IMG/VR virus record: IMGVR_UViG_3300032799_000664
Coordinates: 62,001 to 126,000 of that record
From: a virus
Reading direction: 5' to 3' (one strand)
Length of the DNA stretch: 64,000 bases
Shown here: positions 27,376 through 50,024 of the stretch, one piece after another
Position numbering within the stretch: the first letter of the stretch is position 1
Layout: every line of letters starts with the position of its first letter
Notes under the pieces: model-generated
What the model was told of the DNA's origin: nothing
The model's database searches: none
The model's input: the letters and a program-made list of their open reading frames with translations, nothing else
Made by a program: the position numbers and the translations under genes

Positions 27376-27418
27376 TCCTCTTTACGGGAAGAGGACTTCT
27401 CACGGCTGTAAAGCCGTG
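27376..27418. promoter_or_regulatory. Two inverted repeats between divergent promoters
   Basis: TCCTCTT/AAGAGGA (27376-27395) and CACGGCT-GTAA-AGCCGTG (27401-27418) lie back to back between the replication promoter and the sigma-gene promoter. The second overlaps the extended -10 box of the sigma gene. They fit paired operators. Confidence 0.5.
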
Positions 27419-27425
27419 ATACGCT
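27417..27425 (+). promoter_or_regulatory. Extended -10 promoter of sigma gene
   Basis: TGATACGCT, 11 bp before ATG 27437, overlapping the inverted repeat that ends at 27418. The leader would be very short. Confidence 0.45.
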
Positions 27426-27436
27426 TGGACAACGCC

Positions 27437-28276
27437 ATGCAGACTGAAGACCGTACCTGCGAGCAATACTTCCAAGAAGTCGGCCGCACCCAGATGCCCC
27501 GCAACGCTGAGGAGGAGCGGCTCCTCTTCGAACGCTACTTGAGCTCACAAGACGCGGAAGCACGGCGGCGCTTAGTCGAAGGCGGACTCCGGTTCGTCAT
27601 CAAGACGGCGCGGCAGTACTGCCACGGTGACGCCGAGTTCTTGAAGACGCTCATCCAGGCCGGCAACATCGGTTTGCTGATTGCGGTCGATCGCTACCGG
27701 CCCTGGGTGATCCGCTGCCATCACTGCGGCAAACAGTGCTACGTCGCCGCACCACAGAGTCAGCGTTGCACCGGCTGTGGCCAAGCGCTCCGTGCCAGCG
27801 AAGCGCAGCACTACACGACGCGTTTCCTCACCTACGCCGCGTGGTGGATCTCAGAGTCCATTCGGACTGAACTCTACAGCGCCAGCACGGTCTACGTGCC
27901 GCCCTACAAACAGAAGGCTCACCACCGCGCACGCCAAGCGGGACAAGAAGCCGGTTTCGTCTACGTCCCCTACGACGTCAGCGATGACCACACCCGGGCC
28001 GTAGCGGCCCAGGAAGACGATGAAGCCATCGTCACGAACAACGACGCCCGCCAACTCATCTACGCGCAGCTGTGCAGCTTGCCCGACCGGCAAGCCTTCG
28101 TCCTCATCGCCTACTTCGGTCTGCGGGAGGACGCCAAGACGCTGCGCGAGATTTCGCGGCGCCTTGGCGTATCCTCGGAACGAGTACGGCAGATCAAGGT
28201 GAAAGCGCTGGAAGACTTGCGGGATCGACTGGAGCAGCGGCGACTCCACGCCACCGACGACGCGTTGCTGAACTAG
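27437..28276 (+). CDS. Sigma-70-family factor with zinc-ribbon insertion (279 aa)
   Basis: Region 1.2-2.1 is at 11-62 (LRFVIKTARQY), region 2.2 at 70-87 (LIQAGNIGLLIAVDRY), region 2.3-2.4 at 129-146 (RFLTYAAWWISESIRTEL), and region 4 at 215-265 with the helix-turn-helix LREISRRLGVSSERVRQI. Between 2.2 and 2.3, at 89-125, a zinc ribbon is inserted (C94-HH-C97 and C111-TG-C114), where ordinary sigma factors have a short loop. ATG 27437 is chosen; a GTG at 27416 falls inside the operator. The factor could direct host or phage RNA polymerase to phage promoters. Its stop shares CTAG (28273-28276) with the convergent ParB-like gene. Confidence 0.88.
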   Translation: MQTEDRTCEQYFQEVGRTQMPRNAEEERLLFERYLSSQDAEARRRLVEGGLRFVIKTARQYCHGDAEFLKTLIQAGNIGLLIAVDRYRPWVIRCHHCGKQCYVAAPQSQRCTGCGQALRASEAQHYTTRFLTYAAWWISESIRTELYSASTVYVPPYKQKAHHRARQAGQEAGFVYVPYDVSDDHTRAVAAQEDDEAIVTNNDARQLIYAQLCSLPDRQAFVLIAYFGLREDAKTLREISRRLGVSSERVRQIKVKALEDLRDRLEQRRLHATDDALLN

Positions 28277-33431: not shown

Positions 33432-35312
33432 TCAGGTGAGCGGTGACGCTTTCGCTATCGGACGCGCCAACCCCCGAGGGTAGACGCACTCGTCGTCGAA
33501 CGGCATGATGTCGCGCACCAGACACGATGTTGCGTGCTCACAGGCTGGGCAGGTGATGGCTGCGATGAGCGCCTCCGAGACGTCATGCTTGGTACGCAGT
33601 GCTCGGAGTACGGCCTCGTCGATGGTGCCCGCAGCGATCAAGCGGAAGATGGTCGTGTCGCGCTCTTGCCCCAGGCGGTGATTGCGGTCCTTCGACTGCT
33701 CGTAGTCGCCCAGCTTCCAGGGCAACGTGTAGTAGACCATGTAGTTGGCGGCGTTCAGCGTGATGCCGACGCCGGTTGAGACCTGACCGAGGTAGACCCG
33801 ACACGTCAGGTCAGTGTTGAACTTCTCGGCCAGCGCTGCTGTGCCCCCACCGGTACTGCCATCGACGCGAACGTGACCGAGGTGTTGGTCGTTCAGGAGT
33901 TTCTCAATCAGGTCGAGCTCGGCCGCGTATTGCCCCCAGATGATGACCTTGTTAGTGGAATCTTCGAGAATCTCCTCGAGAAGTTCCCGCAGTGCGTCGA
34001 GCTTGGCATTCTCCGGGAAGAACTCGACCAGTCGCGGTGAAGGCGACGGATGCTTCACGCAGCGACTGGTGTGCGGCTTGATGCTGTCCTGCACACAGGT
34101 ATGTAGATGTTCACAGTCGTCACAAGCCCGGGCTTCGGCTTCAGAGCGCACGTAGACGAAACCCGCCGCGATCTGCAGCAGCTTATTGAGCAGCGTCGCC
34201 ACGTGCGGAATGTCAAGGAGTCGCCCCGCGCCGATGAGCAGCTGCGTCTGGATCTGCGCGAGCAACTCCTGATACTCCGTGGACAGCGTCAGCTCGCGGT
34301 AGAGCGTCCGTGCTCGCCCATACAGCTGCACCGTGCGATCGATGACCACCTGCTTTGGCAAGTCGAGGCAAGCTTCCTTGGTGCGCCGCAGCGCTACCAG
34401 GCTGGTACGCGCATGCAGACCGTCAAGGTTCTTGTAGCCCACCACGATGTGCTTGTTCGATTTGGCCGTGACGCAGTAAATCTGTTTGAACTTCCAGAAC
34501 TCTTCCGCGGCGTAGGCGGGCGAGAGGAAGCGTAGCTGAGACCACAGATCGCGGGGATCGCCCATCGACGGTGTCCCCGACATGATCACGCGTCGCGCTG
34601 CTTTCTGCGACAGCTCCAGCATCGTCAAGGTGCGGGTAGCTTCGTGGGACTTGATGTAGTGCGATTCGTCGGCCACCATCGCCGTGTAGGGCAGCTTTGC
34701 GATCTGCTCCGGAAAGCGCACCAAGGTGTCGTAGGACAGCACAACGCCTTGGTAGCCTGACGTCTTGAGCAGCTGTTGCTCACGTTCGACCAGCGTCTCA
34801 GCATCGATGATGCAGAACTCCTGCTCGATGCCATGAACCTGCAGTTCACGTGCCCAGACCGAAACGACGATCTTGGGGCAGACCACCAGCGTCCAGCACC
34901 GTACCGCCCGCTGCCAATCGATGACGATCTTGGTCTTGCCCAAGCCACAGGCATAGAACAGCGCCGCGCGCCAGTAGTAGAGCAGATGCACGAGACCGTC
35001 GATCTGGTGTTGGTAAGGCTTCGTCTTGAACGTGAAACCATTCGGCAGCGCTTGGGCTTCGTGCTGTTTACGCAACTGTTGCAGCGTCGTAACAGCCTGC
35101 TGCGCCGCCGACGAGAAGACCACCGGCAACTTCAAGGCACGCATGTCCTTGAGGACGACCTCGGCCGCGGGCAGAAACGCCGGGTAGTACCACATCTGGT
35201 TCTGCCACAGCGCCCCGAACACTTTCATGAAGCGGATGTCCGCCGCGGCTACCACGAAGACCGGCGTCCCGCCGAGCGACGTAATCTTTACCTCGTAAAC
35301 CGGTCCCGGCAT
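33432..35312 (-). CDS. SNF2-type (superfamily 2) DNA helicase/translocase (626 aa)
   Basis: Motif I ACGLGKT is near residue 121, motif II VADESHYIK (DESH), motif III MSGTP, and motif VI QSKDRNHRLGQ, all in the SNF2 order. A Cys cluster (CDDCEHLHTC ... C) sits between the two RecA-like halves, and CPACEHATSC near the C-terminus may bind a second zinc. ATG 35312 has GGGGAGATAAAC before it. Such phage proteins remodel protein-DNA complexes or forks. Palindrome copy 6 lies in the first codons (VYEVK). Confidence 0.92.
   Translation of the reverse strand: MPGPVYEVKITSLGGTPVFVVAAADIRFMKVFGALWQNQMWYYPAFLPAAEVVLKDMRALKLPVVFSSAAQQAVTTLQQLRKQHEAQALPNGFTFKTKPYQHQIDGLVHLLYYWRAALFYACGLGKTKIVIDWQRAVRCWTLVVCPKIVVSVWARELQVHGIEQEFCIIDAETLVEREQQLLKTSGYQGVVLSYDTLVRFPEQIAKLPYTAMVADESHYIKSHEATRTLTMLELSQKAARRVIMSGTPSMGDPRDLWSQLRFLSPAYAAEEFWKFKQIYCVTAKSNKHIVVGYKNLDGLHARTSLVALRRTKEACLDLPKQVVIDRTVQLYGRARTLYRELTLSTEYQELLAQIQTQLLIGAGRLLDIPHVATLLNKLLQIAAGFVYVRSEAEARACDDCEHLHTCVQDSIKPHTSRCVKHPSPSPRLVEFFPENAKLDALRELLEEILEDSTNKVIIWGQYAAELDLIEKLLNDQHLGHVRVDGSTGGGTAALAEKFNTDLTCRVYLGQVSTGVGITLNAANYMVYYTLPWKLGDYEQSKDRNHRLGQERDTTIFRLIAAGTIDEAVLRALRTKHDVSEALIAAITCPACEHATSCLVRDIMPFDDECVYPRGLARPIAKASPLT
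35286..35300. repeat. Palindrome family copy 6 (CTTTACCTCGTAAAC)
   Basis: 6+3+6 palindrome with a C at the last position, in the fifth to ninth codons of the helicase gene. Confidence 0.7.
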
Positions 35313-35774: not shown

Positions 35775-35786
35775 GTGGTTTATCCT
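35758..35786 (+). promoter_or_regulatory. Sigma-70-type promoter of portal gene, leaderless
   Basis: TTGTAC (35758-35763), 17-bp spacer, TATCCT (35781-35786). Six bases then lead to ATG 35793, which has no Shine-Dalgarno sequence. Confidence 0.55.
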
Positions 35787-35792
35787 CCGAGC

Positions 35793-37520
35793 ATGAGCTT
35801 CGCTGGCGATCCCTACAGCAGTGACGTAGAAGCCCTCTTTAGACACAACACGACGCACCCTAACCCCATGTTCGACTTCCTGACGGGCTTCGTGCCCCGA
35901 CGGTTGCGCGACCTCTTCATCTGGATGGAGTACCTCTACTACAACTCCGCCCAGATCTTCGCCGGCCTCAAGAAGTTCTGCGAGTACCCCATCACCGACT
36001 TCACCTATGACACCACCAACGAGAACCTGAAGGACCGCGTCAAGCACCTCGTCGAACAGACGCTGCGCTTGAAGGAATTCCTGATGGTCGTGGGGCGCGA
36101 CTACTGGATCTACGGCAACGCATTCGTCTCCGTGTACCAGCCCTTCGCGCGGTTCCTCAAGTGCCCCGAGTGCGGCAAGATGGTGGGCATCGAACACGTC
36201 AACTACCGCTTCCGCTTCATGAAGCTTGCCTTCGAGTACACCTGCCGCCAGTGCAAGAATACCGTTGAGGGCCGCGTTATCGATCGCCGTCTGACCGACC
36301 CCAACCGCATCAACCTGGTGCGCTGGGACCCGAAGCAGATGGACGTCGACTTCAACCCGGTCAGCGGTGAAGCGGTCTACTACCACTCGGTCCCCGCCGA
36401 GATCAAGGACCGCATCCGCAAGGGCAACAAGCTGCTGCTCAACTCGCTGCCGCTGGCCTACATCAAGGCCGCGCGCGACAACAAGATGTTCCGCTTCGCC
36501 GACGACTACATCTTCCACATGAAGGTGCCGCCGCCGGCCGGTATCACCCAGCAGTGGGGCTTCCCACCGCTTACCAGCGCCATCAAACTCTTCTTCTACG
36601 CCGCGGTGTTGCGCAAGGCCAACGAAGCCATCGCGCTCGATCACCTGGTGCCGTTCCGCGTCGTCTCGCCCGCCCAGGCAACCAGCGGCGCCGACCCTAT
36701 CATGACCATCTCACTGGCCAACATGTTCGAGCAGTTCAAGGGCGGCATCCGCCGCTGGCGCCGCGACCCGCTCACCATCATGTTCGCGCCGGTGCCTGTC
36801 CAGCTCACCCAGATGGGCGGCGACGGCCGCGCCCTTCTGACCTTGGGAGAAGTTCAACAAGTCGAAGACAACATCATCGCCGCCATGGGCATCCCGCGCG
36901 AGTTCATCTACGGCGGCATGAGCTTCACGGGGTCAGCGATCACCCTCCGCATGCTCGAGAACCAGCTGCTGACCTACACCGGTGCACTGGATGAGCTGGC
37001 ACAGTGGATCACCGACCGCTGCTGCCGCATCCTCGGCTGGGGCAAGGTCGATCTCGAGCTGCAGGAGTTCAAGCTCATCGACGACGTGCAGCAGAAGCAG
37101 CTCATCATGCAGCTCAACCAGGGTGGCCAGCAGATCATCTCGAACACCACCATCGCCGAGATGAACGACTTCGACCTCGACAAGGAGCGCGAACGGCGTA
37201 TGGAAGAAGCCCTCGACGAAGTGCGCTTCCAGCAGACGCTGCAACTCAAGGTGCAGAAGCTGCAGCAATCGCTGGCACAGAAGACCCAGCAAGAAGCACT
37301 GCGGGGTGGTCCAGGCATGAACTACGACCAGCAACAGGTCATCGCGCAAGCCGACCAGATGGTCGAGCAATTGTTGGGCTTGGATCCCGGCACCCGCAAG
37401 AGCCAGTTGCACGCCCTCCAAGTCGAAGACTTCGTCCTCTACTCCGTCGTGGTACAGCGACTCGAAGAGCGCCAGCTCGCCGCTGCCCAGCAGGGCAAAA
37501 CCCAAGCCCGCGGCGGCTGA
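35793..37520 (+). CDS. Portal protein with zinc-ribbon insertion (575 aa)
   Basis: The ring through which DNA enters the head. Size and order fit a phage portal: an N-terminal helical part (RRLRDLFIWMEYLYYNS), the clip-side YWIYGNAFVSVYQP, the wing/stem region (FPPLTSAIKLFFYAAVLRKANE), IMTISLANMFEQFKG, GIPREFIYGG, then a Gln-rich coiled-coil C-terminus. A zinc ribbon (CPECG ... CRQC) is inserted near residues 130-165. ATG 35793 is used. The C-terminal 100 residues are low-complexity Gln/Glu/Arg. Confidence 0.85.
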   Translation: MSFAGDPYSSDVEALFRHNTTHPNPMFDFLTGFVPRRLRDLFIWMEYLYYNSAQIFAGLKKFCEYPITDFTYDTTNENLKDRVKHLVEQTLRLKEFLMVVGRDYWIYGNAFVSVYQPFARFLKCPECGKMVGIEHVNYRFRFMKLAFEYTCRQCKNTVEGRVIDRRLTDPNRINLVRWDPKQMDVDFNPVSGEAVYYHSVPAEIKDRIRKGNKLLLNSLPLAYIKAARDNKMFRFADDYIFHMKVPPPAGITQQWGFPPLTSAIKLFFYAAVLRKANEAIALDHLVPFRVVSPAQATSGADPIMTISLANMFEQFKGGIRRWRRDPLTIMFAPVPVQLTQMGGDGRALLTLGEVQQVEDNIIAAMGIPREFIYGGMSFTGSAITLRMLENQLLTYTGALDELAQWITDRCCRILGWGKVDLELQEFKLIDDVQQKQLIMQLNQGGQQIISNTTIAEMNDFDLDKERERRMEEALDEVRFQQTLQLKVQKLQQSLAQKTQQEALRGGPGMNYDQQQVIAQADQMVEQLLGLDPGTRKSQLHALQVEDFVLYSVVVQRLEERQLAAAQQGKTQARGG

Positions 37521-39314: not shown

Positions 39315-42300
39315 ATGGCCTTGACCCCGGTTCTCATCGACGCCGCCACTCGTCGCACCCAGATCCACGAGAAAGCGACCGACGGGGTCCGCCGCGTGTT
39401 CCCGCTCGCCCTCCGTGATCATCGTGTCGAAGTCGAAGACCTCCACGTAGTCTCAAAGGAGTACTCCTCCCGCGAACAGAAAGACGCCCTGCTGCAGGGG
39501 CACACGCTGCAGGAGCCGCTCAAGGGAAGCCTCATCCTCAAAGACGCCGCCGGCAAGGTCGTCCAACGCAAAGACGACATCACGCTGGCGCAGTTGCCGT
39601 GGTTCACGCCGCGACACACGTTCATCGTAGACGGCAATGAATACTCGGTAGCAAACCAGCGTCGTGTCAGACCCGGCGTGTATACGCGGGTCAGGGGCAA
39701 CGAAGAGCTCGAAGCCGCGTTCAACCTAGGCCGCGGTGACAACTTCCGTCTCAGCATGGACCCCGCCAAGGGTCACCTTTACATGCAGTACGGGACGACC
39801 AACATTCCGCTCTACCCCATCCTGCGCAAGCTCGGCGTGCCGGAGACCGAGCTCAACCGCGCCTGGGGCAGCGGTGTTGTCGCCCAGAATCGCAGCATGT
39901 TCGCCGGTACCCCAGCGAAGGCCGACAAGGCCATGGACAAGCTCTACGAGCGGCTGGTGCCGGAGTACCGCCGCACGCACCATACGCAGGAAGCCAAGGC
40001 CGACGCCATCCACGAGAGCTACAACAACACAGTGCTGGACCCCGACGTCACATCCCGAACCCTGGGAGAAGCTTTCACACACGTGACGCCCACCGCGCTT
40101 GTTAAAGCTTCAAAGAAGCTGCTCGACGTACATCGTGAAGGCGTTGACACCGACGATCGTGACAGCCTCGCTTTCCAACAGCTGCTGAGCGCCGACGACT
40201 TCGTTCGCGAACGCATCCTGCTGGAAGGCCGCAACCTGGCCAAGAAGGCGCGCATGAAGGCGTCTTCGGGCAACCTCGACCTCGATCGCATCGTCCCACC
40301 GTCGCCATTCACCCGAACCCTCCGGAGCTTCATCACCAACAGCTCGCTGTCTTCGATCCCGACCCAAATCAACCCCGTCGAGATTCTCGACAGTGCTGCC
40401 AAGGTCACGACGTTAGGCGAAGGCGGCATTGAGTCCGAACGCGCCATCCCCAACGAGGCCCGCAGCCTCCACCACACGCACTTCGGCCTCATCGATCCGG
40501 CGCGTACTCCTGAGAGCTTCCACGCCGGCGTTGATCTACGTGCCGCCCTCTGGCTCAAGCGTGATGAGCAAGGCCGGATGCACACGTTGTTGCGCAACGC
40601 CAAGACCGGCAAACTCCAAGATGTCGCAGTCCAGGATGTTGAGAACGCCACCGTGGCGCTGCCGTGGCAACGTGCCCAGCAACGGGGTGTCTCTGCTCTG
40701 CGTGCCGGACAACCGGTCTCGGTCGGCCGCGGCGAAATCGACTACGAACTGCCGCACCCGTCCTTCATGTTCTCGCTGTCGAGCAATACCATACCGATGC
40801 CGGAGAGCGTCGAAGGCTTCCGCCTGCTGATGGGCGCCAAGCACGTCGGCCAAGCCCTCCCGCTAGTGCACCGGGAAGCCCCGCTGGTACAAGTAGCCTC
40901 GTTCAATCCACACCGCACCATGGAGCAGGAGATCGCTCGTTTCATCGTACCGCACGCCCCGGTCGCCGGCACCATCACCAAGGTCGACCAGGACTACATC
41001 TACCTGCGACCTGAAGCCAAGAAGAAGGCCGAAGCAGAGAGCGAATGGCCGCAACTGATGCCCGTCGAGCACGTCTATCTCGCTGAAGACGGTGAGAAAA
41101 CCGCCGCCACCCCGCTCATCAAGATCCCCTACGATGACCACTTCCCCCTGTCGTCCAAGACCTTCCTGCACAACAACGTCACCGTGAAGGCCGGCGACGA
41201 AGTCGATGCCGAACAGCTCCTCACCGATTCGAACGTCACCATGGACGGTCGGTTGGCGCTGGGCACGAACCTCCGGGTCGGCTATCTGCCCTATTACGGG
41301 GCCAACACCAACGACGCGGTGGTCATCTCACAGGCCGCCGCCGAGAAGTTGACCAGCGAGCACATGTACAAGGAAGTGCTCCAGCTCGACCTGGACACCG
41401 TGCTCGAGCGCGACAAGCATCGCGCCATGTTCGGCAGCCGTTGGACCGCCGCCCAGTACGCCCACCTCGATAACCGGGGCGTCGCGCGTTCCGGAGAGAC
41501 GCTACAGCCAGGCGATCCTCTCATCCTCGGGCTGCATAAGGCCCTACCCACCGCTGAACAGCGTATGCTTGGCAAACTTCACCGCACGTTGAACACGCCT
41601 TTCCGTGAGATTGCGTTGACGTGGGAGCACCGCTGTCCTGGCGAAATCGTCGACGTCGTCGCGACGCCATCGCGCATCCTACTCACTGTTCGCACCAGTG
41701 AACCAGCGGCGATTGGCGACAAGATCTCGAACCGCTACGGCGGCAAAGGGGTCGTTGCCCAGGTGCTGCCGATTGCCCAGATGCCGCATACGCCCGATGG
41801 GCGACCGCTGGAGCTGCTCATGCCACCCACGGGGGTGCACGGCCGCATCAACCCAGCCCAGATTCTGGAAACCGCGGTCGCGAAGGTCGCGGAGAAGACC
41901 GGCAAGCCCATCGTCATCGAGTCGTTCAGTGGCAAGAACAACGTGAAGTGGGCACGCGGGCTTCTCAAGGAGCACGGCCTCACCGACAAAGAGATCCTCG
42001 ACAACCCGATGACCGGGAAGACCATCAAGGGACCCGACGGCAAGGGCGTGATGGTCGGACCGCAGTACATCTACAAGCTCTTCAAGAGCACCGAGACGAA
42101 CTACAGCGCGCGCGGCGTCGAGGACTACGACGCGAATCTCCAGCCAGCAAAGGGAGGAGCGACAGGGGCGAAAGCCCTCGGGCGCATGGAGATCAACGCC
42201 CTGCTGGCGCACAACGCCCGCAACGTCTTGCGCGAATCCATGACCCTCAAGTCGTCACGCAACGACGAGTTCTGGCGCGCCTACCAGCTAGGCCTGCCGT

Positions 42301-43760
42301 TGCCACCAGCCCGCACCTCGTTCACCAGCGAGAAGTTCCTGGAAATGCTGCGCGGCGCCGGCATCAAGGTCGACAAGAGCAACGAGCAAATGACGCTCGG
42401 CCCGTTGACCGATGCCGACGTAAAGAAGCTCTCCGCCGGCGCCATCGCTCGGCCGCTCATGGTGAAAGAGAAGGACCTCTCCCCGGAGAAAGGCGGACTC
42501 TTCGATCCCGTAGTCACCGGCGGCACCAACGGCACGCGCTGGTCGCACGTCGACCTGCACGAACCGCTGGTGAACCCGACGTTCGAAGAACCAGTACGCC
42601 GTTTGCTGGGTCTCACCGTAGCGCAGTTCCGTGGTTTACTGGAACGTGAGGGTGGCGCCGGTATCCGTCGCCGCCTGGCAACCATCAACCTTGATCAGCG
42701 CGAACGCGAGCTCCGGAGTGAAGTTCGTGATGCCACCGGCGCCCGACTCGACGGATCCTTGAAGCAACTGAAGAACGTCCTGGCACTGCAACGCGAGAAA
42801 CTCTCCCCGGATCAGGCCTACATCATCTCGAAACTGGGTGTCGTACCCCCGGTGATACGTCCGATCTTGCCAGCCTCTCATGGCCGCAAGGACCTGTTGG
42901 TCTCTGACGCGAACTACTTGTACCGCGACGCGATGCTCGCCAACGAGAATCTCGCCGCCGCCAAGCACTCACTGCCACCCGAAGAAGTGGCCAAAGCGCG
43001 ACTCCACCTCTATGACGCCACGAAAGCAGTCTTCGGTCTCGGTGACCCGATGAGCCCACAGCTGCAGGGCCGCGGCGCCAAAGGCTTCATCACGACGATC
43101 GCCGGACAGGGTAGTCCCAAGGGTGGTTTCTTCCACGGCAAAGTCCTCTACCGCCCGCAGGACGTCAGTGGTCGCGGTACTGCGGTCCCCGACCTCAACC
43201 TCAACATGGACGAGGTCGGCATTCCCGAAGACATGATGTGGACGATGTACGGTCCGCACGTCATCCGGCGGCTGGTGCAGAACGGCTACCACGTCGTCGA
43301 TGCACAGAAGGCGCTCGAAGACCACATGCCGGTGGCCCGTGAAGCCCTGCTGCGTGAAGCACAAGAGCGCCCGCTCATCGTCAACCGCGCCCCCACGCTG
43401 CACCGCTACGGCATGATCGGTGCGTACCCGGTGCCGGTGCCGGGAAAGACGTTGCGGGTCAATCCGTTCATCGAGAAAGGCCTCAACCTCGACTACGACG
43501 GCGACACGCTGACTGTCCACGTCCCCGTCATGCCGGGCGCAGTCAAGGACGTGAAGTCGATGCTGCTGTCCAACCTGCTCTTCGGCGACAAGACCAAGAG
43601 CGACCTGTTGGTCTTCCCCCAACACGAAGCCATCGTCGGGGTGCACCTAGCCAGCAACGCCAAAGACGGCAAGAAGTACCGTTTCAAGACCAAGGCCGAG
43701 GCGCTCGCCGCGTATCGTCGCGGCGAAATCGCGCTCGACGCCGAGATAGAGATCGGTTGA
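39315..43760 (+). CDS. RNA polymerase beta subunit fused to N-terminal (catalytic) part of beta-prime
   Basis: 1481 aa. Residues 1 to about 1015 are beta: TNDAVVISQAAA, GDKISNRYGGKGVV (from 801, with the two conserved Lys), LELLMPPTGVHGRINPAQILE in parts, and the beta C-terminal block GRMEINALLAHNARNVLRE. From about 1030 beta-prime begins (LTDADVKKLSAGAIARP, then GGLFDPVVTGG), without the first zinc finger of cellular beta-prime. SKLGVVPPVIRPILP, then the active-site loop N1391-LDYDGD-1397 with three Mg-binding Asp, and it stops after the YRRGEIALDAEI segment. The rest of beta-prime is encoded at 48210-50024. No alpha or omega gene is visible. It contains EKTA (from E594), the motif shared with virion proteins. 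Confidence 0.92.
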   Translation: MALTPVLIDAATRRTQIHEKATDGVRRVFPLALRDHRVEVEDLHVVSKEYSSREQKDALLQGHTLQEPLKGSLILKDAAGKVVQRKDDITLAQLPWFTPRHTFIVDGNEYSVANQRRVRPGVYTRVRGNEELEAAFNLGRGDNFRLSMDPAKGHLYMQYGTTNIPLYPILRKLGVPETELNRAWGSGVVAQNRSMFAGTPAKADKAMDKLYERLVPEYRRTHHTQEAKADAIHESYNNTVLDPDVTSRTLGEAFTHVTPTALVKASKKLLDVHREGVDTDDRDSLAFQQLLSADDFVRERILLEGRNLAKKARMKASSGNLDLDRIVPPSPFTRTLRSFITNSSLSSIPTQINPVEILDSAAKVTTLGEGGIESERAIPNEARSLHHTHFGLIDPARTPESFHAGVDLRAALWLKRDEQGRMHTLLRNAKTGKLQDVAVQDVENATVALPWQRAQQRGVSALRAGQPVSVGRGEIDYELPHPSFMFSLSSNTIPMPESVEGFRLLMGAKHVGQALPLVHREAPLVQVASFNPHRTMEQEIARFIVPHAPVAGTITKVDQDYIYLRPEAKKKAEAESEWPQLMPVEHVYLAEDGEKTAATPLIKIPYDDHFPLSSKTFLHNNVTVKAGDEVDAEQLLTDSNVTMDGRLALGTNLRVGYLPYYGANTNDAVVISQAAAEKLTSEHMYKEVLQLDLDTVLERDKHRAMFGSRWTAAQYAHLDNRGVARSGETLQPGDPLILGLHKALPTAEQRMLGKLHRTLNTPFREIALTWEHRCPGEIVDVVATPSRILLTVRTSEPAAIGDKISNRYGGKGVVAQVLPIAQMPHTPDGRPLELLMPPTGVHGRINPAQILETAVAKVAEKTGKPIVIESFSGKNNVKWARGLLKEHGLTDKEILDNPMTGKTIKGPDGKGVMVGPQYIYKLFKSTETNYSARGVEDYDANLQPAKGGATGAKALGRMEINALLAHNARNVLRESMTLKSSRNDEFWRAYQLGLPLPPARTSFTSEKFLEMLRGAGIKVDKSNEQMTLGPLTDADVKKLSAGAIARPLMVKEKDLSPEKGGLFDPVVTGGTNGTRWSHVDLHEPLVNPTFEEPVRRLLGLTVAQFRGLLEREGGAGIRRRLATINLDQRERELRSEVRDATGARLDGSLKQLKNVLALQREKLSPDQAYIISKLGVVPPVIRPILPASHGRKDLLVSDANYLYRDAMLANENLAAAKHSLPPEEVAKARLHLYDATKAVFGLGDPMSPQLQGRGAKGFITTIAGQGSPKGGFFHGKVLYRPQDVSGRGTAVPDLNLNMDEVGIPEDMMWTMYGPHVIRRLVQNGYHVVDAQKALEDHMPVAREALLREAQERPLIVNRAPTLHRYGMIGAYPVPVPGKTLRVNPFIEKGLNLDYDGDTLTVHVPVMPGAVKDVKSMLLSNLLFGDKTKSDLLVFPQHEAIVGVHLASNAKDGKKYRFKTKAEALAAYRRGEIALDAEIEIG

Positions 43761-43786
43761 GCAATCGTCCATCGATGACCTATACT
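43757..43786 (+). promoter_or_regulatory. Sigma-70-type promoter
   Basis: TTGAGC (43757-43762), 18-bp spacer, TATACT (43781-43786); the -35 box overlaps the stop of the RNA polymerase gene. Drives the following plus-strand genes. Confidence 0.6.
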
Positions 43787-43821
43787 TGCGGTACTGGTCA
43801 TCCACAGCAAGGAGCGTACCC

Positions 43822-44058
43822 GTGAGCCATCTCGATACCGCGTTCAAGATCGGCGCCGCACAGGCGCAGCACGATTTCCAGGCTGAGCTCGACAAGGTCG
43901 CCCAGGGCGACATGCGTCCGCCCATCCCCACACCGGACATCCGGCCGGGGCAGCCGCAGCCGGGTCCCGCACCACGTCCCATGCCGGCTCCCACCCCGAA
44001 GCTGCCCATCCCGAATCCCGGGCTGGGACCGCGTCAGCCGGGCCGCCCAGTCCTGTAG
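43822..44058 (+). CDS. Small Pro-rich protein (78 aa)
   Basis: GTG 43822 has AAGGAGCGTACCC before it. N-terminus SHLDTAFKIGAAQAQHDFQ is helical; from residue 35 almost every third residue is Pro (PRPMPAPTPKLPIPNPG). Probably an extended virion or adaptor protein. Function unknown. Confidence 0.65.
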   Translation: MSHLDTAFKIGAAQAQHDFQAELDKVAQGDMRPPIPTPDIRPGQPQPGPAPRPMPAPTPKLPIPNPGLGPRQPGRPVL

Positions 44059-44092
44059 CTCAACCCACATCTCGTAGAAGGCAGGAGTGTGG

Positions 44093-44623
44093 ATGAGCAA
44101 CCCGTACCTCAGCTACAGCCATCGTCTCGGTGCTGAGGCGGCACTGCAGCACTTCGGCGTGCGGGTCAAGACGGGAAATACGCCAGCAATCACGACGGGT
44201 GGACCGATGCCTTCAGCAGTCGCCGCACAGCCACCCACAGCTGCAGCGTCACCAGCGCCACCCACGGGTTCACCAATGACTCCTCCGGCTACGGGCCGCA
44301 CCGTAACCGGTTCGGCACGAATGGCCGCCGCGGATTTCGCCCGGTCCATGCAGGAAGCGGAGTACGACAATCCGACAGCACCGCCGCCGAAGTTCGCCGG
44401 TTTCGAAATTGACACCGACGGCATCGTGCGGCGCACCCTCGAAAAGTTCGGTGGTCCCCGCGGTCGAAACGGACGGCCCAGTGGCGCACGTGAACCTGCG
44501 TCACGCACTCCGGTGGGCGTCGGCGGTCGTTTCCAGGCGCTGAAGCGCAAGATGTCCCACAAGAAGAACGTGGCCACGGCCAAGCGCGTCGGACGCACCT
44601 CGGCGAAGAGTCGCAAGGGATAG
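44093..44623 (+). CDS. Small basic-tailed protein (176 aa)
   Basis: ATG 44093 has GCAGGAGTGTGG before it. N-terminus YSHRLGAEAALQHFGV resembles short N-terminal helices in neighbouring proteins (such as FKIGAAQAQHDF). The middle is Thr/Pro/Ala-rich, the C-terminus strongly basic (KRKMSHKKNVATAKRVGR), fitting nucleic-acid contact. Function unknown. Confidence 0.65.
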   Translation: MSNPYLSYSHRLGAEAALQHFGVRVKTGNTPAITTGGPMPSAVAAQPPTAAASPAPPTGSPMTPPATGRTVTGSARMAAADFARSMQEAEYDNPTAPPPKFAGFEIDTDGIVRRTLEKFGGPRGRNGRPSGAREPASRTPVGVGGRFQALKRKMSHKKNVATAKRVGRTSAKSRKG

Positions 44624-44635
44624 GCGAGGCCCTGT

Positions 44636-46141
44636 GTGGCAGCGATCTACACCATCGGAGGTCAGCTCGCCGCACTGGCGGACCTCGGCCTACTGAAGAC
44701 TGCCCAGGCTGCACTGCCCGGCGAGTTCGCTCCGGGCATCCCCAAGGGCAAGCCAGTCTCCCCACTCCCAACGATCAACGCTGACACGCTCAACCGCTGG
44801 ACGCTCGCGGTGCAGCACCACGAAACTACGCGCTCAGGTGGACGCGCCCACTTCGATCTGCGACTCGTCGATCCTGATGCAGGGAAGGCCCACTCGTGGG
44901 CCATCCCCAAGGCCCGACTACCGGAGCCAGGTGAGAAGCTACTGGCGGTTCAGACGTTCACGCACACCCCCGACTACGCACTCCACTTCGGCGAGAAGGG
45001 TGAGCAGACGATCGGTTCGGGATACGGCGCCGGCAAGGTCCGCATGGCGCTCAAGGAACCAGTCGACGTAGTCGAAGCGAACCGCGACAAGGTTCGCTTC
45101 AACGTCTACCAGGGGAAGGACATCAACGAGTACCTGCTGCACCGCACCCACGGCGACAAGTGGCTACTGCAGAACGTGACCATCACCAAAGCACGGCGCC
45201 CAGACATCCCGCAGAGCAAGCCTGACTACAAGGAGACGACCCCGGACAAGGTCGACGTCACCAATGATCAGCAACTCATGGCCGCAAAGGTCGACGGCGC
45301 ACACAACACATTCGTACTTGATGCGGGTCAGCCCGTACGGGTTTTCAGTTATCGACCTACCGAACGCGACACCGGGATCATCGAACACAGCCACCGATTC
45401 CTCCCCGGATACACGACCCGCGTGCCTGATCATCTCGACCAACTGGTGCTCCGGGGAGAACTCGTCGCCGCCGACCCTCACACCGGAAGAGCTCGCGGAA
45501 CTCAAGATACGGGCGCCGTCCTCAACTCCGGCGTATGGAAGAGCCGCGATCTGCAAACTCACACGCCGCTGCGAGCGATCATCTTCGATGTCGCGCGGCG
45601 CCACGGGAAAGACCTGGAGTCACTCCCCTACGAGAAGAAGCTGTCCATCCTTGGGGAGGTCCACAAGTCGCTACCGTTCCTCGAACTCCCGCCGATGGCG
45701 CGGACGGCGAAAGAGAAGATCGACCTGCTGAACCGGATTCGCACCGGACAGGAGCCGATCACCAGCGAAGGCGTCGTACTCTGGCCCCTCGCCGGTGGCC
45801 CGCCCACCAAGGCCAAGTTTCGGCCGGACCACGACGTCTACGTGCGTGAGGTCTACCCAGAGACGGGGTCGCGTACCGGGTTGGCCGGCGGCTTCCGCTA
45901 CTCCTGGACCCCCGAGGGCAAGATCGTCGGCAACGTCGGCACCGGGCTCGACCACGCGCTCAAGCGCGACATGCTATCGAACCCCGCGAAGTACATCGGC
46001 CGCGTCGCCAAGGTGCAGGCCCTCGGGCTCTACCGCGACAAGGAGCATCCGAAGAAGCCGGGCGCACTACGAGCACCGGCGTTCAAGGATTGGCACCTCG
46101 ACAAGGGCCTGCAGCTCTTCGATCTGCCGAAGGAGAAGTGA
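44636..46141 (+). CDS. LigD-like 3'-phosphoesterase domain fused to ATP-dependent DNA ligase (501 aa)
   Basis: Residues about 50-160 match the LigD phosphoesterase: HHETTRSGGRAHFDLRL, SWAIPKARLPEPGEKLLAV, and GSGYGAGKV. The ligase part follows: motif I AAKVDGAHN with the adenylated Lys218, motif III LVLRGELVA, motif IV SEGVVLWPL, motif V AKFRPDHDVYVREV. Bacterial LigD joins the same two activities (often plus a polymerase) for end joining; no polymerase domain or Ku gene is visible here. GTG 44636 is used, RBS weak. KTAQ near residue 21 precedes the first domain. Confidence 0.88.
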   Translation: MAAIYTIGGQLAALADLGLLKTAQAALPGEFAPGIPKGKPVSPLPTINADTLNRWTLAVQHHETTRSGGRAHFDLRLVDPDAGKAHSWAIPKARLPEPGEKLLAVQTFTHTPDYALHFGEKGEQTIGSGYGAGKVRMALKEPVDVVEANRDKVRFNVYQGKDINEYLLHRTHGDKWLLQNVTITKARRPDIPQSKPDYKETTPDKVDVTNDQQLMAAKVDGAHNTFVLDAGQPVRVFSYRPTERDTGIIEHSHRFLPGYTTRVPDHLDQLVLRGELVAADPHTGRARGTQDTGAVLNSGVWKSRDLQTHTPLRAIIFDVARRHGKDLESLPYEKKLSILGEVHKSLPFLELPPMARTAKEKIDLLNRIRTGQEPITSEGVVLWPLAGGPPTKAKFRPDHDVYVREVYPETGSRTGLAGGFRYSWTPEGKIVGNVGTGLDHALKRDMLSNPAKYIGRVAKVQALGLYRDKEHPKKPGALRAPAFKDWHLDKGLQLFDLPKEK

Positions 46142-46142
46142 T

Positions 46143-46655
46143 ATGCCCTTCAAGAGCCAAGCTCAACGCGGCAAGTTCTACGCCATGGCCGACCGTGGTG
46201 AGATCTCGAAGACCACCGTCAAGCACTGGGAAGACACCACGCCCAAGGGCAAGAAGCTCCCCGAGCACGTCGGCCACAAGAAGGAGAGCGCGTTCTTCGG
46301 GCACGGCGTAGCGCAGGCGATGGTCGATACTGGTCTCGTCCCGCAGACGAAGACTGCGGCTGGAATCAAAGAACGACTACCATGGAATCAACCAGGACAA
46401 GGTGCTGAAGGACTCGGGCAAGGGCGTTGGTTGCCTGAAGTTCTCGACCCAAAACTCGTCGCTGACCAGGCCATGCAACAGGCAAAGCGGCGATTGCCGG
46501 AGTGGCCGTTCGGTTCCGCCGCCGACATCGGACGCGGCGTTCTGCAGGGTCGTGCTGGACTCGCTGAAGCCCTGCGTGCAGATGCTCTACATCACGGAAG
46601 CCGGTCACAAGAAGTGATGGAACTGCTCGCGAACCTGATCAAACGTCGAGGATGA
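46143..46655 (+). CDS. Conserved phage protein of unknown function (170 aa)
   Basis: ATG 46143 follows AAGGAGAAGTGAT. The N-terminus MPFKSQAQRGKFYAMADRG and then EISKTTVKHWEDTTPKGKKLP is a pattern common in phage hypothetical proteins. KTAAG near residue 62 is the recurring motif. The rest is helical. It overlaps the next gene by four bases. Confidence 0.72.
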   Translation: MPFKSQAQRGKFYAMADRGEISKTTVKHWEDTTPKGKKLPEHVGHKKESAFFGHGVAQAMVDTGLVPQTKTAAGIKERLPWNQPGQGAEGLGQGRWLPEVLDPKLVADQAMQQAKRRLPEWPFGSAADIGRGVLQGRAGLAEALRADALHHGSRSQEVMELLANLIKRRG

Positions 46656-47134
46656 TGATGGCCTACGCACTTCCAGGCGGCATCCCCGGCGGCAACGCCG
46701 AGAAGGAAGGCAAGAAGCCTTCGGACTTCAGCGCCAAAGAAGTCGAGACCGGCCGTGAGATCGAGCACGAGCACACCGACGACTCGACCAAGGCCACCGA
46801 CATCGCCCTCGATCACCTGACCGAGATTCCCGACTACTACCGCCGCCTGGTGGCGATGGAACAACGCGCTGACCGCGAAGGCATGAAGCATGATGTGAGC
46901 AGCGAAAAGGCCAGCGCCGCAGCCGACGACTTCATCCGCACCAAGCTGCGGGGCGATGCACTCCCACCCATCTCCGCCCAGCGCTACGCGAAATTGCCCT
47001 ACGATGACCAGCCGCAGCCGCACGACCAACCGGTGATGTACCAGACCGACCCTGATCTCAACATCGTGAAGCAGGCGTCCATACCTTATACTAGGGGTGT
47101 AGCTACCGCACTTTACGCGGTAAACCTTCACTAA
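46652..47134 (+). CDS. DUF5661-like protein (160 aa)
   Basis: Starts in the overlap ATGATGATG (46652 given; 46658 has better RBS spacing). The segment EVETGREIEHEHTDD, then ATDIALDHLTEIPDYYRRLVAME matches the end of the DUF5661 pattern (EHE/IALxHLxExPDYYxRLxxME). Function unknown. The last codons (LYAVN) are written across palindrome copy 8. Confidence 0.65.
   Translation: MMMAYALPGGIPGGNAEKEGKKPSDFSAKEVETGREIEHEHTDDSTKATDIALDHLTEIPDYYRRLVAMEQRADREGMKHDVSSEKASAAADDFIRTKLRGDALPPISAQRYAKLPYDDQPQPHDQPVMYQTDPDLNIVKQASIPYTRGVATALYAVNLH
47087..47092 (+). promoter_or_regulatory. Possible -10 box (TATACT)
   Basis: TTATACT about 55 bp before the holin start, within the previous gene; the -35 region is weak. 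Confidence 0.35.
47111..47125. repeat. Palindrome family copy 8 (CTTTACGCGGTAAAC)
   Basis: 6+3+6 palindrome 21 bp before the holin-like gene, after the TATACT box. Confidence 0.75.
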
Positions 47135-47145
47135 CAGGAGCCCAC

Positions 47146-47817
47146 ATGTCGATTCGCCCGTGGCTCAAGATGCGCAACGTCCTCGACCAGATGCAGAACG
47201 ATGAGATTCACCATCTGACCTGGCGCATTCGCGTGCTGGGCGCGTTCCTCGTGCTGGCGCTCCTGCTCATGGTGGTCCCACCCCTGATCGCAGTGGCCGC
47301 GCCCGCCACTCAGCCGGTCATCGCCGCTACACAACCTGCGACCCCCGTCGTGAAGGCCGCCGCGAATGTGCAGCAGTGGTGGATGCCGCTCCTGACTCCG
47401 ATGCTCGCTGCCATCGGTACCCTACTAGCGGCTTTCATCACCGCCTTGCTCAGCAAGCTCATCAAGCTGTTCGAAGCCAAGTACAAGATCGACGTACCAA
47501 CGGATGTCGAGAAGCTGATGGCCGAGAAAGCGAAGCAGCTCATCGCCGGCGCCGAAGAAGAAGCCGAGCGCCGCATCCTGCACGAAGATGGTCAAGTCAC
47601 CTCCGGTGCAGCGAAGAACAAGGAGGTCGTCACCGCGCTCGTGGCGTTCGCCGAATCCATCGGCTACGGTAAGCTGTACCAGGAAGAACAGACGAAGAAG
47701 CTGGTCGATGGTGTGTTGCATCTCAGCCGCATCGGCAGCGAAAACGTCATCGGCAGCAACGGGGACCGCGCCAAGCGACTCGCGAAGGCCAATCACGACG
47801 ACGCCAGCAAGCGCTGA
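47146..47817 (+). CDS. Holin-like membrane protein, LL-H type (223 aa)
   Basis: ATG 47146 has ACAGGAG before it. Two hydrophobic segments: residues about 28-52 (LGAFLVLALLLMVVPPLIAVAA) given in part, and 77-100 (LLTPMLAAIGTLLAAFITAL). A charged helical C-terminal domain follows (KYKIDVPTDVEKLMAEKAK ... KNKEVVTALVAFAESIG), the layout of LL-H-type phage holins, which have a long C-terminal part. It should make membrane holes at lysis. No endolysin is seen next to it. A membrane-anchored non-lysis role cannot be excluded. Confidence 0.6.
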   Translation: MSIRPWLKMRNVLDQMQNDEIHHLTWRIRVLGAFLVLALLLMVVPPLIAVAAPATQPVIAATQPATPVVKAAANVQQWWMPLLTPMLAAIGTLLAAFITALLSKLIKLFEAKYKIDVPTDVEKLMAEKAKQLIAGAEEEAERRILHEDGQVTSGAAKNKEVVTALVAFAESIGYGKLYQEEQTKKLVDGVLHLSRIGSENVIGSNGDRAKRLAKANHDDASKR

Positions 47818-47828
47818 ACGGAGCTACT

Positions 47829-48200
47829 ATGGGTGACGAGTTCTTCAGTCGCGGTGCTGGTGAAGCCCTGAAAGCCTTGGGGCTCATGAGCGATGACGTC
47901 GCCTACGCACTGGCGCGGCGTCAGTCCCGTAAAACCGCAGCCCCAATGCCGCCAACTGAAGGTGGTGATCAGCACGGCGCACCCTTCCCCGAGAAGAGCA
48001 TGAACATCGGCGCCGAACGCTTCGCACGCCTGCTGCGCAACCTGGACGACGAAGGACTCAAGGGGAGGAGCAACCCCGACAACGCCAACTACGCCTACAC
48101 CAACAACCTCGATCGACTCACGACCTGGGGTGGATCGACGCATGTCGAGGAGGGGCGTTCCTCGGGTGGTTTGATGGTGCCTGCCAATCCTCGCGGTTGA
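47829..48200 (+). CDS. Small unknown protein (123 aa)
   Basis: ATG 47829 has ACGGAGCT before it. N-terminus FFSRGAGEALKALGLM is a short helix like those of other virion-type genes here; SRKTAAPMP follows at about residue 35. C-terminus Gly/Asn-rich. Function unknown. Confidence 0.65.
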   Translation: MGDEFFSRGAGEALKALGLMSDDVAYALARRQSRKTAAPMPPTEGGDQHGAPFPEKSMNIGAERFARLLRNLDDEGLKGRSNPDNANYAYTNNLDRLTTWGGSTHVEEGRSSGGLMVPANPRG

Positions 48201-48209
48201 CCTTCCCCG

Positions 48210-50024
48210 ATGCCGACCAAGCGCAAACCAGCGACGACCACCATCGGTCGATTGCTGCTGAACGAAGCCCTGCCGCCATCACATCAGATCGATCAACCGA
48301 TGGCGCGGCACGAGCTCAACGCGCTGATGTCAGACCTGGCCCGCAGCGATCCACCACGCTACGTGCAGGCCATCTCCGACATCAAGCGCATCGGTGATGC
48401 CGTCGCTACCGACGAAGGTCTCACGGTCGGATTAGACGACATCGAACCCGAATACGCCGTGCGGGATCCGTTGCTCGAACCGGTGTTAGCACAGGTGAAG
48501 CGTACACGGGACCCGCAAGCCCGTATCCGACTCATTGAAGCACTACAACCCAAGCTCATCGAGATCACCAAACGTCACCCCGGCCAAGCCGCGATGATGG
48601 TTCGCAGCGGTGCCCGCGGCGCCATGCCCCAGATTCTGCGTACCGTGACCACCCCGACGGCCATCACCGATGACCGTGGTCGAACCGTACCTTGGATCAT
48701 CAGCAAGAGCTACGCCGAGGGTCTCAAACCAATCGATGCTTGGATCGCCTTGGGCGAAGCTCGACGCAACGCCGTCGAGTCGAACATCTCCGTTTCCGCA
48801 CCGGGTGAAGTCAGCAAGCTGCTCATCGGCAACATGGGTGATCAGCTCATCACAATGCCGGACTGTGGCACCAGCAACGGCCTTGCAATGCTCGCCGATG
48901 ATCCACAAGCTCGGGACCGCTACCTCGCCAAGGCCAGCGAAGGTCTCCCCGCCGGTACGTTGCTCACCGGCCAGCTAGCGAGTCGACTCCACAGCAAGAT
49001 GATAGTGCTGCGTTCACCCATGACCTGCGAAGCCCCCCACGGCGTCTGCCAGCGCTGCTATGGCTTGAACAACCGTGGCCAACCCGCGCGACTCGGCGAC
49101 AATGTCGGCATGATCGCAGCCCACGCCATGGGTGAGCCGCTCACCCAGATGGCGCTCAACGCAAAACACGCCGCACGCACTACTGCCTCACGAAAGGTAG
49201 TCCTCAGCGGCCTGTCGGGCCTCAAGCAGCTCACCGAAATCCCACAGAGCTTCTTCAACCGAGCGGTGCTTTCCGAGCATCCGGGAACTGTCACTGGAAT
49301 CGCATCGGCACCCCAGGGTGGGCATTACGTCACGGTCGATCAGGAGCAACACTACGTGCCCCCGATCCTGGACGTGACCGTACATCGGGGCGACAAGATC
49401 GAAGCCGGCGACGCCCTTTCCGATGGCATCCCCCGACCCGACGACGTCGTCCGTCACAAAGGACTGGGCGTTGGTCGACAGTATCTCGTCGATCAGCTGC
49501 AGGGCATCTACAAGCGACATGGTCTTGACATGGACCGCCGCCACCTCGAGCTGCTGGCGAAGACCGACCTGAACTACATCAAGATCATGGACCGCGACGC
49601 CGAACAGCTGGGGCTGCTACGCGGCGACGTCATCGACTACAACCGCTTCCGCAACCTGGTCGCGGAGCACACCAAGGTGCTACCACTCGCTGACGCTCTT
49701 GGCGAAACACTCGGCGACAACGTACTCCACTACACCGCCGGCACGCGGGTGACCCCGGCGGTCGCACTGGACCTGCGTCGCGTCGGCATAAAGACGGTGT
49801 CCATCGCTCCACGCATCCCACTGCACGAACCGCTCATGAAGCCCATCAGTCGCGCCCCGTTGCTGCGTCCTGACTGGTTGGCCCGCCTGGCCCACCGCAA
49901 CCTCAAGGATTCCATTCTCGAGGGTGCCGCCTTCGGTGAGACAGCCGAGCTGCATGGTACGCATCCCGTTCCCGCACTGGTTATCGGCGAGTCGTTCGGC
50001 ACTGGGCCTCCCGAACACTACTGA
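48210..50024 (+). CDS. RNA polymerase beta-prime subunit, C-terminal part (604 aa)
   Basis: Begins where the fused subunit stops: TTIGRLLLNEALPP and then VATDEGLTVGLDDIEP match the cellular beta-prime segment after the active site. MMVRSGARGAMPQILR is the bridge-helix region. The second beta-prime zinc site is complete: C219 (PDCGT), C273, C280, C283 (VCQRCYG), with the spacing of cellular enzymes. VGMIAAHAMGEPLTQMALNAKH is the trigger-loop region (in two parts: VGMIAAHAMGEP and LTQMALNAKH). The split point resembles the RpoC1/RpoC2 division of cyanobacteria. ATG 48210, no strong RBS. Confidence 0.92.
   Translation: MPTKRKPATTTIGRLLLNEALPPSHQIDQPMARHELNALMSDLARSDPPRYVQAISDIKRIGDAVATDEGLTVGLDDIEPEYAVRDPLLEPVLAQVKRTRDPQARIRLIEALQPKLIEITKRHPGQAAMMVRSGARGAMPQILRTVTTPTAITDDRGRTVPWIISKSYAEGLKPIDAWIALGEARRNAVESNISVSAPGEVSKLLIGNMGDQLITMPDCGTSNGLAMLADDPQARDRYLAKASEGLPAGTLLTGQLASRLHSKMIVLRSPMTCEAPHGVCQRCYGLNNRGQPARLGDNVGMIAAHAMGEPLTQMALNAKHAARTTASRKVVLSGLSGLKQLTEIPQSFFNRAVLSEHPGTVTGIASAPQGGHYVTVDQEQHYVPPILDVTVHRGDKIEAGDALSDGIPRPDDVVRHKGLGVGRQYLVDQLQGIYKRHGLDMDRRHLELLAKTDLNYIKIMDRDAEQLGLLRGDVIDYNRFRNLVAEHTKVLPLADALGETLGDNVLHYTAGTRVTPAVALDLRRVGIKTVSIAPRIPLHEPLMKPISRAPLLRPDWLARLAHRNLKDSILEGAAFGETAELHGTHPVPALVIGESFGTGPPEHY

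Follow-up and report, generated by a model that had tools for sequence, protein, structure and literature searches.

Few machines in biology are as conserved as multisubunit RNA polymerases, whose assembly in cells depends on the alpha subunit. Beta and beta-prime are fused in the cellular enzymes of Helicobacteraceae and Wolbachia, where beta-prime is unbroken and alpha, omega and the zinc ribbon are present. In these RpoB-RpoC proteins the C-terminus of beta is joined to the N-terminus of beta-prime (cited in PMC7483510). In phages of the phiKZ/AR9 type, beta-prime of both the virion and the non-virion enzyme is divided directly behind its barrel, at the place of the cyanobacterial split, and the AR9 non-virion core works without alpha (PMC7598289). 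In crAss-like phi14:2 gp66, YonO and P23-45 gp96/gp64, both barrels lie in a single chain of a reduced, highly diverged type, and phi14:2 gp66 and P23-45 gp96 are virion enzymes (PMC10770324). Finally, the mReC enzymes of metagenomic tailed phages have cellular-like beta and beta-prime that branch off from bacteria; the paper treats them as two subunits, with fusion mentioned for crAssphage only (PMC7481178).

An isolated Salmonella phage published in 2023, Arash, encodes two further polymerase chains, which the available part of its description names 'beta' and 'beta-prime' without remarking there on any fusion or split (PMC10585845). According to the same text, virion mass spectrometry recorded 3516 spectra for gp206, the most for any protein and more than for the major capsid protein, and 1210 for gp216; the sigma factor Gp10 was also detected, and the authors offer carry-over as an alternative explanation for the virion signal (PMC10585845).

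Here we analyse a window of 64,000 nucleotides (positions 62,001 to 126,000 of IMG/VR record IMGVR_UViG_3300032799_000664), in which all features discussed lie on the plus strand. A sequence-only reading of this window had proposed a phage polymerase with beta fused to half of beta-prime, the remainder being encoded apart. The two open reading frames on which it relied, ORF1 (39315..43760, 1481 aa) and ORF2 (48210..50024, 604 aa), are present with those positions and lengths.

Results

The ORF call, Pfam domains and profile alignment identify ORF1 as a full-length beta that continues into the N-terminal half of beta-prime, with Rpb2_3, Rpb2_6, Rpb1_1 and Rpb1_2 all in a single chain. The beta part spans residues 1-1024 (39315..42386), of which residues 21-1024 align with E. 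coli beta 49-1342 (hhalign, E 2.8e-56); beta is complete, rather than 'nearly all' present as had been suggested. The beta-prime half, residues 1006-1481 (42330..43757), aligns with E. coli beta-prime 2-551 (hhalign, probability 100, E 1.6e-43). The structure prediction for this chain alone is of modest confidence (pLDDT 73), and its residues 282-1481 match beta chains (Foldseek, E ~1e-40). K803 and K811 (41721..41747), the equivalents of the GDK...NKG catalytic-site lysines of beta, are invariant in E. coli and 51 sampled phage sequences, and the three aspartates of the magnesium-binding catalytic loop NLDYDGD (residues 1391-1397, 43485..43505) show no variation among the 51. The fusion through NLDYDGD stands as first read, and the chain continues past this loop into beta-prime. 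The N-terminal zinc ribbon of beta-prime (C70, C72, C85 and C88 in E. coli) is cleanly deleted, profile alignment to E. coli beta-prime placing the deletion site at 42492..42548 (GGLFDPVVTGGTNGTRWSH). The same ribbon, already noted as missing in the initial reading, was absent from all 203 relatives checked.

ORF2 supplies the C-terminal half of beta-prime, as indicated by Pfam (Rpb1_5), profile alignment and structure modelling. Its residues 3-566 align with E. coli beta-prime 565-1379 (hhalign, E 9.9e-32), reliably to about residue 480, and the top PDB matches of its AlphaFold2 model (chain alone, pLDDT 80) are all bacterial beta-prime chains. The model contains a 36-residue helix (residues 174-209, 48729..48836) that aligns with the E. 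coli bridge helix and is the predicted bridge helix here. The second zinc site, C219...C273, C280 and C283 (48864..49058), is intact by profile alignment, in agreement with the sequence-only reading, and its cysteines are kept in 49-50 of the 51 sampled sequences. Alignment and conservation place the trigger loop/helix at residues 299-328 (49104..49193); H320, aligned to the trigger-loop histidine of E. coli beta-prime, is invariant (51/51), and the loop tip (residues 321-328) has low pLDDT.

The two chains are separated by 4.4 kb and several genes, and their order and strand are identical at 111 of 111 loci. Their junction falls in a linker, where about 13 E. coli beta-prime residues are without a match. 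Judged by alignment and conservation, ORF1 and ORF2 jointly make up one complete predicted active centre. The loss of an essential segment is ruled out, the zinc ribbon being the sole loss besides the gap of about 13 linker residues. Rejoining of the halves by a split intein is likewise ruled out: intein sequence is found at neither the end of ORF1 nor the start of ORF2, both of which are homologous to the continuous linker of single-chain relatives.

These relatives take three forms. The two-chain layout is represented by 65 distinct sequences, including those of the isolated phages Arash and Vibrio D69 and D181; one relative (L003) has it at 97.6%/92.6% identity (97.6% for the ORF1 copy). 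A further 77 distinct sequences are single chains of ~2000 aa, with the same halves joined in frame by a linker running from the ORF1 end point to the TTxGR motif at which ORF2 starts. The joined state of the same halves in these natural homologues is direct evidence for ORF1 and ORF2 being parts of one enzyme. A three-chain form lies within the same phage clade, and the beta/beta-prime fusion is kept in all three. Inteins in relatives are positioned exactly at the catalytic loops. In trees of 56-72 sequences, in which five bacteria were the only cellular organisms, the separation of the phage clade from the bacteria has support 100, as does a clade uniting the two-chain with the three-chain form. 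Support for the single-chain group as a clade is 93 in one tree and 53 in the other, and this group may be a basal grade. A cellular gene caught on the contig is ruled out, both by this separate branching (branch length 1.4-1.5) and by the portal and capsid genes alongside.

Profile searches for alpha (PF01000) gave no match in this record, a near-identical 197.8-kb relative, Arash and others (~20 records), and those for omega (PF01192) gave none in 11 records, of which the present one may be incomplete. Control genomes were positive in both searches. The lack of matches agrees with the initial reading that neither subunit is visible. The window also encodes a sigma-70 family protein that had been overlooked, with regions 2 and 4 (27416..28276; PF04545, E 2.7e-13; PF04542, E 4.8e-5). 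Its homologues include Arash gp196 and a gene of relative L048, and sigma occurs in many relatives, a recognisable copy not being found in every single-chain phage. It is likely to be the promoter-recognition partner of the polymerase. Each genome has one beta-prime locus. The polymerase genes sit within the structural block, between portal and capsid genes, with the portal gene just upstream of the fused gene as in Arash-type layouts; the order helicase, portal, RNAP, beta-prime-C, structural genes, capsid is common to the window and Arash.

Comparison with described polymerases

Arash (OQ632216; gp206 and gp216) and Vibrio phages D69, D181 and D148 have the same layout, order and strand, which overturns the earlier suggestion that no described enzyme is built in this way. 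Arash-type phages share neighbouring genes with the window and likewise have their own sigma. These relatives are distant, at about 35% identity: their homologues match ORF1 at 33-35% identity (100% coverage) and ORF2 at 29-30% (95-98% coverage). In Vibrio D181 a homing-endonuclease gene interrupts the fused gene.

The phiKZ/AR9 enzymes resemble the present one in breaking beta-prime in the post-barrel linker and in lacking alpha and omega, and a virion enzyme is known there (PMC7598289). In our alignments the linker in which ORF1 breaks is also where the beta-prime N-half stops in AR9 and in E. coli phage EP_H11, contrary to the initial view that known phage enzymes split beta-prime elsewhere. 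However, in phiKZ/AR9 beta is split and unfused to beta-prime, the core comprises 4-5 pieces, and each phage has two enzymes and no recognisable sigma, whereas here beta is whole and fused, the core has two chains, and there is one enzyme with a sigma-70; the sequences are also far from ORF1 and ORF2. A cyanobacterial-like break, also suggested initially, holds in part: in RpoC1/RpoC2 of cyanobacteria and plastids the cut separates the catalytic barrel from the bridge helix, as here, but it is not at the same residue, cyanobacterial gamma running ~70 residues beyond the ORF1 break (aligned to 553 of 624). RpoB is unfused in these enzymes, and alpha and omega are present.

Unlike the crAss/YonO type, the present clade keeps the bacterial beta/beta-prime plan (clamp, bridge helix, trigger loop and second zinc site) and is detectable with ordinary sequence searches. 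The C-half of beta-prime is here on a second chain, and the single-chain relatives have the full bacterial plan. As with mReC, the RNAP clade separates from the five bacteria (support 100), a likeness that does not imply identity with the present clade; our set includes a contig from 3300017989, a metagenome named in the mReC paper (PMC7481178). The mReC motif is NADxDGD and the window reads NLDYDGD; a search of 16 records, run without a positive control, found no Gp23-type capsid (PF07068). The two-chain layout is therefore not unique and the position of the beta-prime break is not new; the novelty, as far as could be searched, lies in a beta/beta-prime fusion that has lasted and in the setting where it occurs. 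The unusual feature is this retained fusion combined with a movable break in beta-prime.

Discussion

We consider it probable that ORF1 and ORF2 form a complete bacterial-type two-chain core, free of alpha and omega and directed by sigma-70, that is probably packaged in the virion and transcribes the phage independently of the host enzyme. ORF1 would supply beta, the clamp and the catalytic barrel, and ORF2 the bridge helix, trigger loop and remainder of beta-prime; we infer that the chains assemble and are active, and found no biochemistry for any clade member. The covalent beta/beta-prime link plausibly takes the place of alpha as assembly platform, with the phage sigma-70 as the presumed agent of promoter recognition. 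Two observations make packaging probable: portal and capsid genes flank the polymerase genes, and in purified Arash virions the homologues rank with the most abundant proteins; injection of the enzyme would then allow phage transcription to start without the host enzyme.

It is unlikely, though conceivable, that this is instead a late polymerase made only during infection, like the phiKZ/AR9 non-virion enzyme, with the host polymerase serving early genes and the Arash virion signal reflecting carry-over. The single polymerase locus per genome, set against the separate virion and non-virion enzymes of phiKZ-type phages, would suit such a role, and carry-over is raised by the Arash authors themselves (PMC10585845). 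A gp206 count that is the highest in Arash virions, exceeding that of the major capsid protein (PMC10585845), speaks against it, as does the location of the genes within the structural block.

Bacterial alpha contacts beta, and the retention of full-length beta together with the undetected alpha and omega could point to a hybrid enzyme whose phage chains need alpha, and perhaps also sigma, from the host in order to assemble. We regard this as distinctly improbable: in AR9 the non-virion core requires no alpha for its activity (PMC7598289), the chains could be brought together through the covalent fusion instead, and the phages have their own sigma. A virion protein that has degenerated to a structural or DNA-binding role, with no part in transcription, would accord with the high abundance in Arash virions (PMC10585845) and with the missing zinc ribbon. 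Catalytic residues invariant across a very diverged clade, and inteins exactly at the catalytic loops, as expected of functional sites, make it very hard to credit. Nothing but the odd layout suggests one gene broken by sequencing error, misassembly or frameshift, which the intervening genes, the 97.6%/92.6% identical relative with its matching layout, the constancy across all 111 loci and the isolated phages effectively rule out; the relative and the 111 loci exclude chance as well.

Returning to the sigma-directed two-chain core, the persistence of the beta/beta-prime fusion in all three forms makes the breaks in beta-prime look like later fissions. We lean towards descent of this large clade of tailed phages from an ancestor with a single full-plan beta-beta-prime chain of ~2000 aa, from which two successive fissions within beta-prime gave two- and then three-chain enzymes. 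If so, one polypeptide plus sigma replaces alpha2-beta-beta-prime-omega, and the fissions fell inside beta-prime, away from the old beta/beta-prime boundary; the subunit boundaries of cellular-type polymerases would be movable in evolution and the assembly platform dispensable.

More generally, this clade seems to have retained the bacterial catalytic plan in full, sigma use included, and to have lost alpha, omega and the zinc ribbon and redrawn its chain boundaries; its three forms show how such boundaries can move. Because all are still alignable to E. coli, they make alpha-free assembly directly testable, along with the sufficiency of the covalent link and the origin of phiKZ-like split polymerases. 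The isolated phage Arash makes such tests feasible now.

A scan of genome contigs for hosts gave only three fragments, all in MAGs (Planctomycetaceae, an uncultured bacterium and Izimaplasma); since these may be binned phage, we assign no host. A search for the polymerase's own promoter identified none; a recurrent palindrome turned up during that search.

A complete polymerase divided between two chains

ORF1 (39315-43760, plus strand, 1481 aa) and ORF2 (48210-50024, plus strand, 604 aa) were both confirmed where the sequence-only reading had placed them, in proposing that beta is fused to half of beta-prime with the rest encoded apart. Profile alignment equates ORF1 21-1024 with E. coli beta 49-1342, ORF1 1006-1481 with beta-prime 2-551 and ORF2 3-566 with beta-prime 565-1379 (reliable to about ORF2 480). 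This leaves some 13 E. coli residues unmatched between the two chains, in the linker from the catalytic barrel to the TTVGR motif. The Pfam matches on ORF1 are to Rpb2 (domains 3 and 6, plus a weak hit to domain 7) and Rpb1 (domains 1 and 2); on ORF2 the match is to Rpb1 domain 5. The only clear loss relative to E. coli is the first beta-prime zinc finger, as had been noticed earlier: the N-terminal zinc ribbon was seen in none of 203 relatives examined, and in ORF1 GGLFDPVVTGGT-NGTRWSH takes the place of the C70-C88 loop. Across 51 sampled phage sequences there is no variation at the three aspartates of NLDYDGD (ORF1 1391-1397), at beta K803 and K811 (ORF1) or at trigger-loop H320 (ORF2), and all but one of the 51 keep the second zinc site. 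The enzyme is real, complete and conserved. At relative locus L152 (5567-11860), a single-chain polymerase has lost the second zinc site's cysteines.

AlphaFold2 models built from family alignments agree with these assignments. In the ORF2 model (pLDDT 80) a bridge helix of 36 residues and a trigger helix are visible; the PDB entries closest to it are bacterial beta-prime chains, with E as low as 5e-27. ORF1 282-1481 (pLDDT 73) matches beta chains (E ~1e-40). Given the large rmsd and uncertain overall geometry, structure serves here as supporting evidence only and the argument is carried by sequence.

Intein-like inserts of ~320-540 aa interrupt the polymerases of relatives at four catalytic positions that rank among the best conserved: right after DYDGD, the GDK lysine loop, the beta TPES loop and the trigger loop. 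By locus, they lie at the beta-prime site in L005 (1069-7071), L047, L099, L104, L109, L125, L166 and L285; at beta site ~805 in L046, L072, L075-L077, L081, L083 and L114; at beta site ~402 in L108, L119, L132 and L292; and at the trigger-loop site in L292. Those of L005 and L077 carry LAGLIDADG_3.

Related layouts and isolated phages

Scoring profiles for four modules (N and C parts of beta and of beta-prime) over the ORFs of all fetched loci distinguished three layouts among related phages. Layout F holds all four modules in one chain of ~2000-2200 aa (77 distinct sequences). Layout B, that of the window, has 65 distinct sequences; in every one the beta-prime-C gene follows downstream, on the strand of the fused gene, after 534-5717 bases. 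Layout T has three chains (5 distinct sequences), the first ending in the first ~100 residues of beta-prime and the second starting just before the coiled coil. Because this extra break lies away from the old beta/beta-prime boundary, the fusion is kept in F, B and T. In F chains the linker runs unbroken exactly where ORF1 ends (AYRRGEIALDAEIEIG) and ORF2 starts (KPATTTIGRLL), as in L148 (AFKQRRLKIDDVVTLKGRKTTIGKEII). At L280 7523-12955, in a 205-kb virus record, beta is divided into pieces of 175 and 598 aa and an intact beta-prime of 1026 aa stands apart from them; this may be a fourth layout or the product of sequencing errors.

The window is not the first deposited case of layout B. The sequence-only reading knew of no enzyme so arranged; the isolated Salmonella phage Arash carries a matching pair, gp206 (1525 aa; 35% identity to ORF1 over 100%) and gp216 (606 aa; 29% to ORF2 over 98%), and comparably close matches come from Vibrio phages D69, D181 and D148. 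In the Arash paper (PMC10585845), gp206 and gp216 are annotated as beta and beta-prime and both are reported from purified virions, gp206 with 3516 spectra, the highest of all proteins; a sigma factor was also detected, and early transcription or carry-over is suggested by the authors. The passages found contain no comment on a beta/beta-prime fusion. In D181 (L017 3980-9494), a homing-endonuclease gene interrupts the fused polymerase gene, leaving coding pieces of 514 and 1006 aa, the pattern that a self-splicing intron would give.

The break in beta-prime and published groups

The earlier view that known phage enzymes split beta-prime differently is not supported. In phiKZ and AR9, virion and non-virion enzymes alike are split after the beta-prime barrel, at a position said to match the cyanobacterial break (PMC7598289), and by sequence the beta-prime-N of AR9 and of E. 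coli phage EP_H11 ends within the same linker as ORF1 but a few tens of residues sooner. Distantly related lineages thus have cuts in one and the same linker. The likeness to the cyanobacterial RpoC1/RpoC2 break, proposed earlier, is inexact: cyanobacterial gamma runs ~70 residues past the break seen here.

The mReC group of Weinheimer and Aylward (PMC7481178) and the F phages may share members: chains of type F would pass that group's selection criteria (matches to beta and beta-prime, NADxDGD, a length of 800 aa or more), and a contig from a metagenome named there is in the present set. That paper mentions fusion only for crAssphage. The mReC Gp23-type capsid family had no match in 16 records here, in a search without a positive control. 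We came across no account of the F, B or T architecture in the open-access literature searched; as far as searched, layout B and its fused and further-split relatives are so far undescribed as such. Cobetia phage Carin-5 (L014 4047-10872), only distantly related to the window's clade, encodes beta-prime (1083 aa, unsplit) and beta (927 aa) as separate chains, adjoining a sigma gene.

Phylogeny and history

In IQ-TREE trees (LG+F+R5) of concatenated modules (1709 and 1671 columns; 72 and 56 sequences), the phage sequences form one clade apart from the bacteria included (support 100). B and T together are a clade (100), within which T (96-97) nests with Arash-like B; F falls outside, its own clade not firm (93 and 53 in the two trees). 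Most simply, beta and beta-prime would have fused in the phage ancestor, one fission after the catalytic barrel would then have given B, and a second one inside the clamp T. With a root on bacteria only and a long branch, this order of events is likely rather than proven. A number of records filed under phage names (L193/L202, L194 and others; among them Staphylococcus phage SA 1306 Kay and Acinetobacter phage MD-2021a) have rpoB/rpoC of the usual bacterial kind and appear to be bacterial sequence.

Genomic surroundings and proposed working

The source IMG/VR virus record spans 130,445 bases (window, 62001-126000), and a 197,792-base relative carries the same pair at 97.6% (ORF1) and 92.6% (ORF2) identity. 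As the sequence-only reading had suggested, alpha and omega gave no match in any record tested, control genomes being positive. All genomes tested carry a single beta-prime catalytic locus and so one enzyme, unlike the virion/non-virion pair of phiKZ. By Blast, the window and Arash share the order sigma (sigma-70, regions 2 and 4; 27416-28276), SF2 helicase (33432-35312), portal (35775-37520), ORF1, ORF2, several structural genes and major capsid (start only, 63264 onwards; 39% to Arash gp226).

ORF1 probably folds as beta with clamp and catalytic barrel tethered, and ORF2 would dock on it, adding bridge helix, trigger loop and the region of the jaw. As a platform for assembly, the tether is a plausible substitute for alpha, an idea helped by the natural beta/beta-prime fusions of Helicobacteraceae and Wolbachia (cited in PMC7483510) and by AR9 enzyme activity without alpha (PMC7598289). 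The phage sigma would direct promoter recognition and, by analogy with Arash, the enzyme is probably packaged in the virion.

Between ORF1 and ORF2 (44636-46141) lies a 501-aa protein with ATP-dependent DNA/RNA ligase and LigD-type 3'-phosphoesterase domains, and a Class II (B12-dependent) ribonucleotide reductase is encoded at 477-3203 on the minus strand. With up to 2 mismatches allowed, the window has 10 copies of a 15-base palindrome, CTTTACNNNGTAAAG, against 0.34 expected, at 155, 4932, 17543, 23405, 30973, 35286, 37523, 47111, 50196 and 58619. Several copies fall in intergenic gaps, one just upstream of the gene at 37557, and the palindrome looks like a phage-regulator binding site or promoter element.
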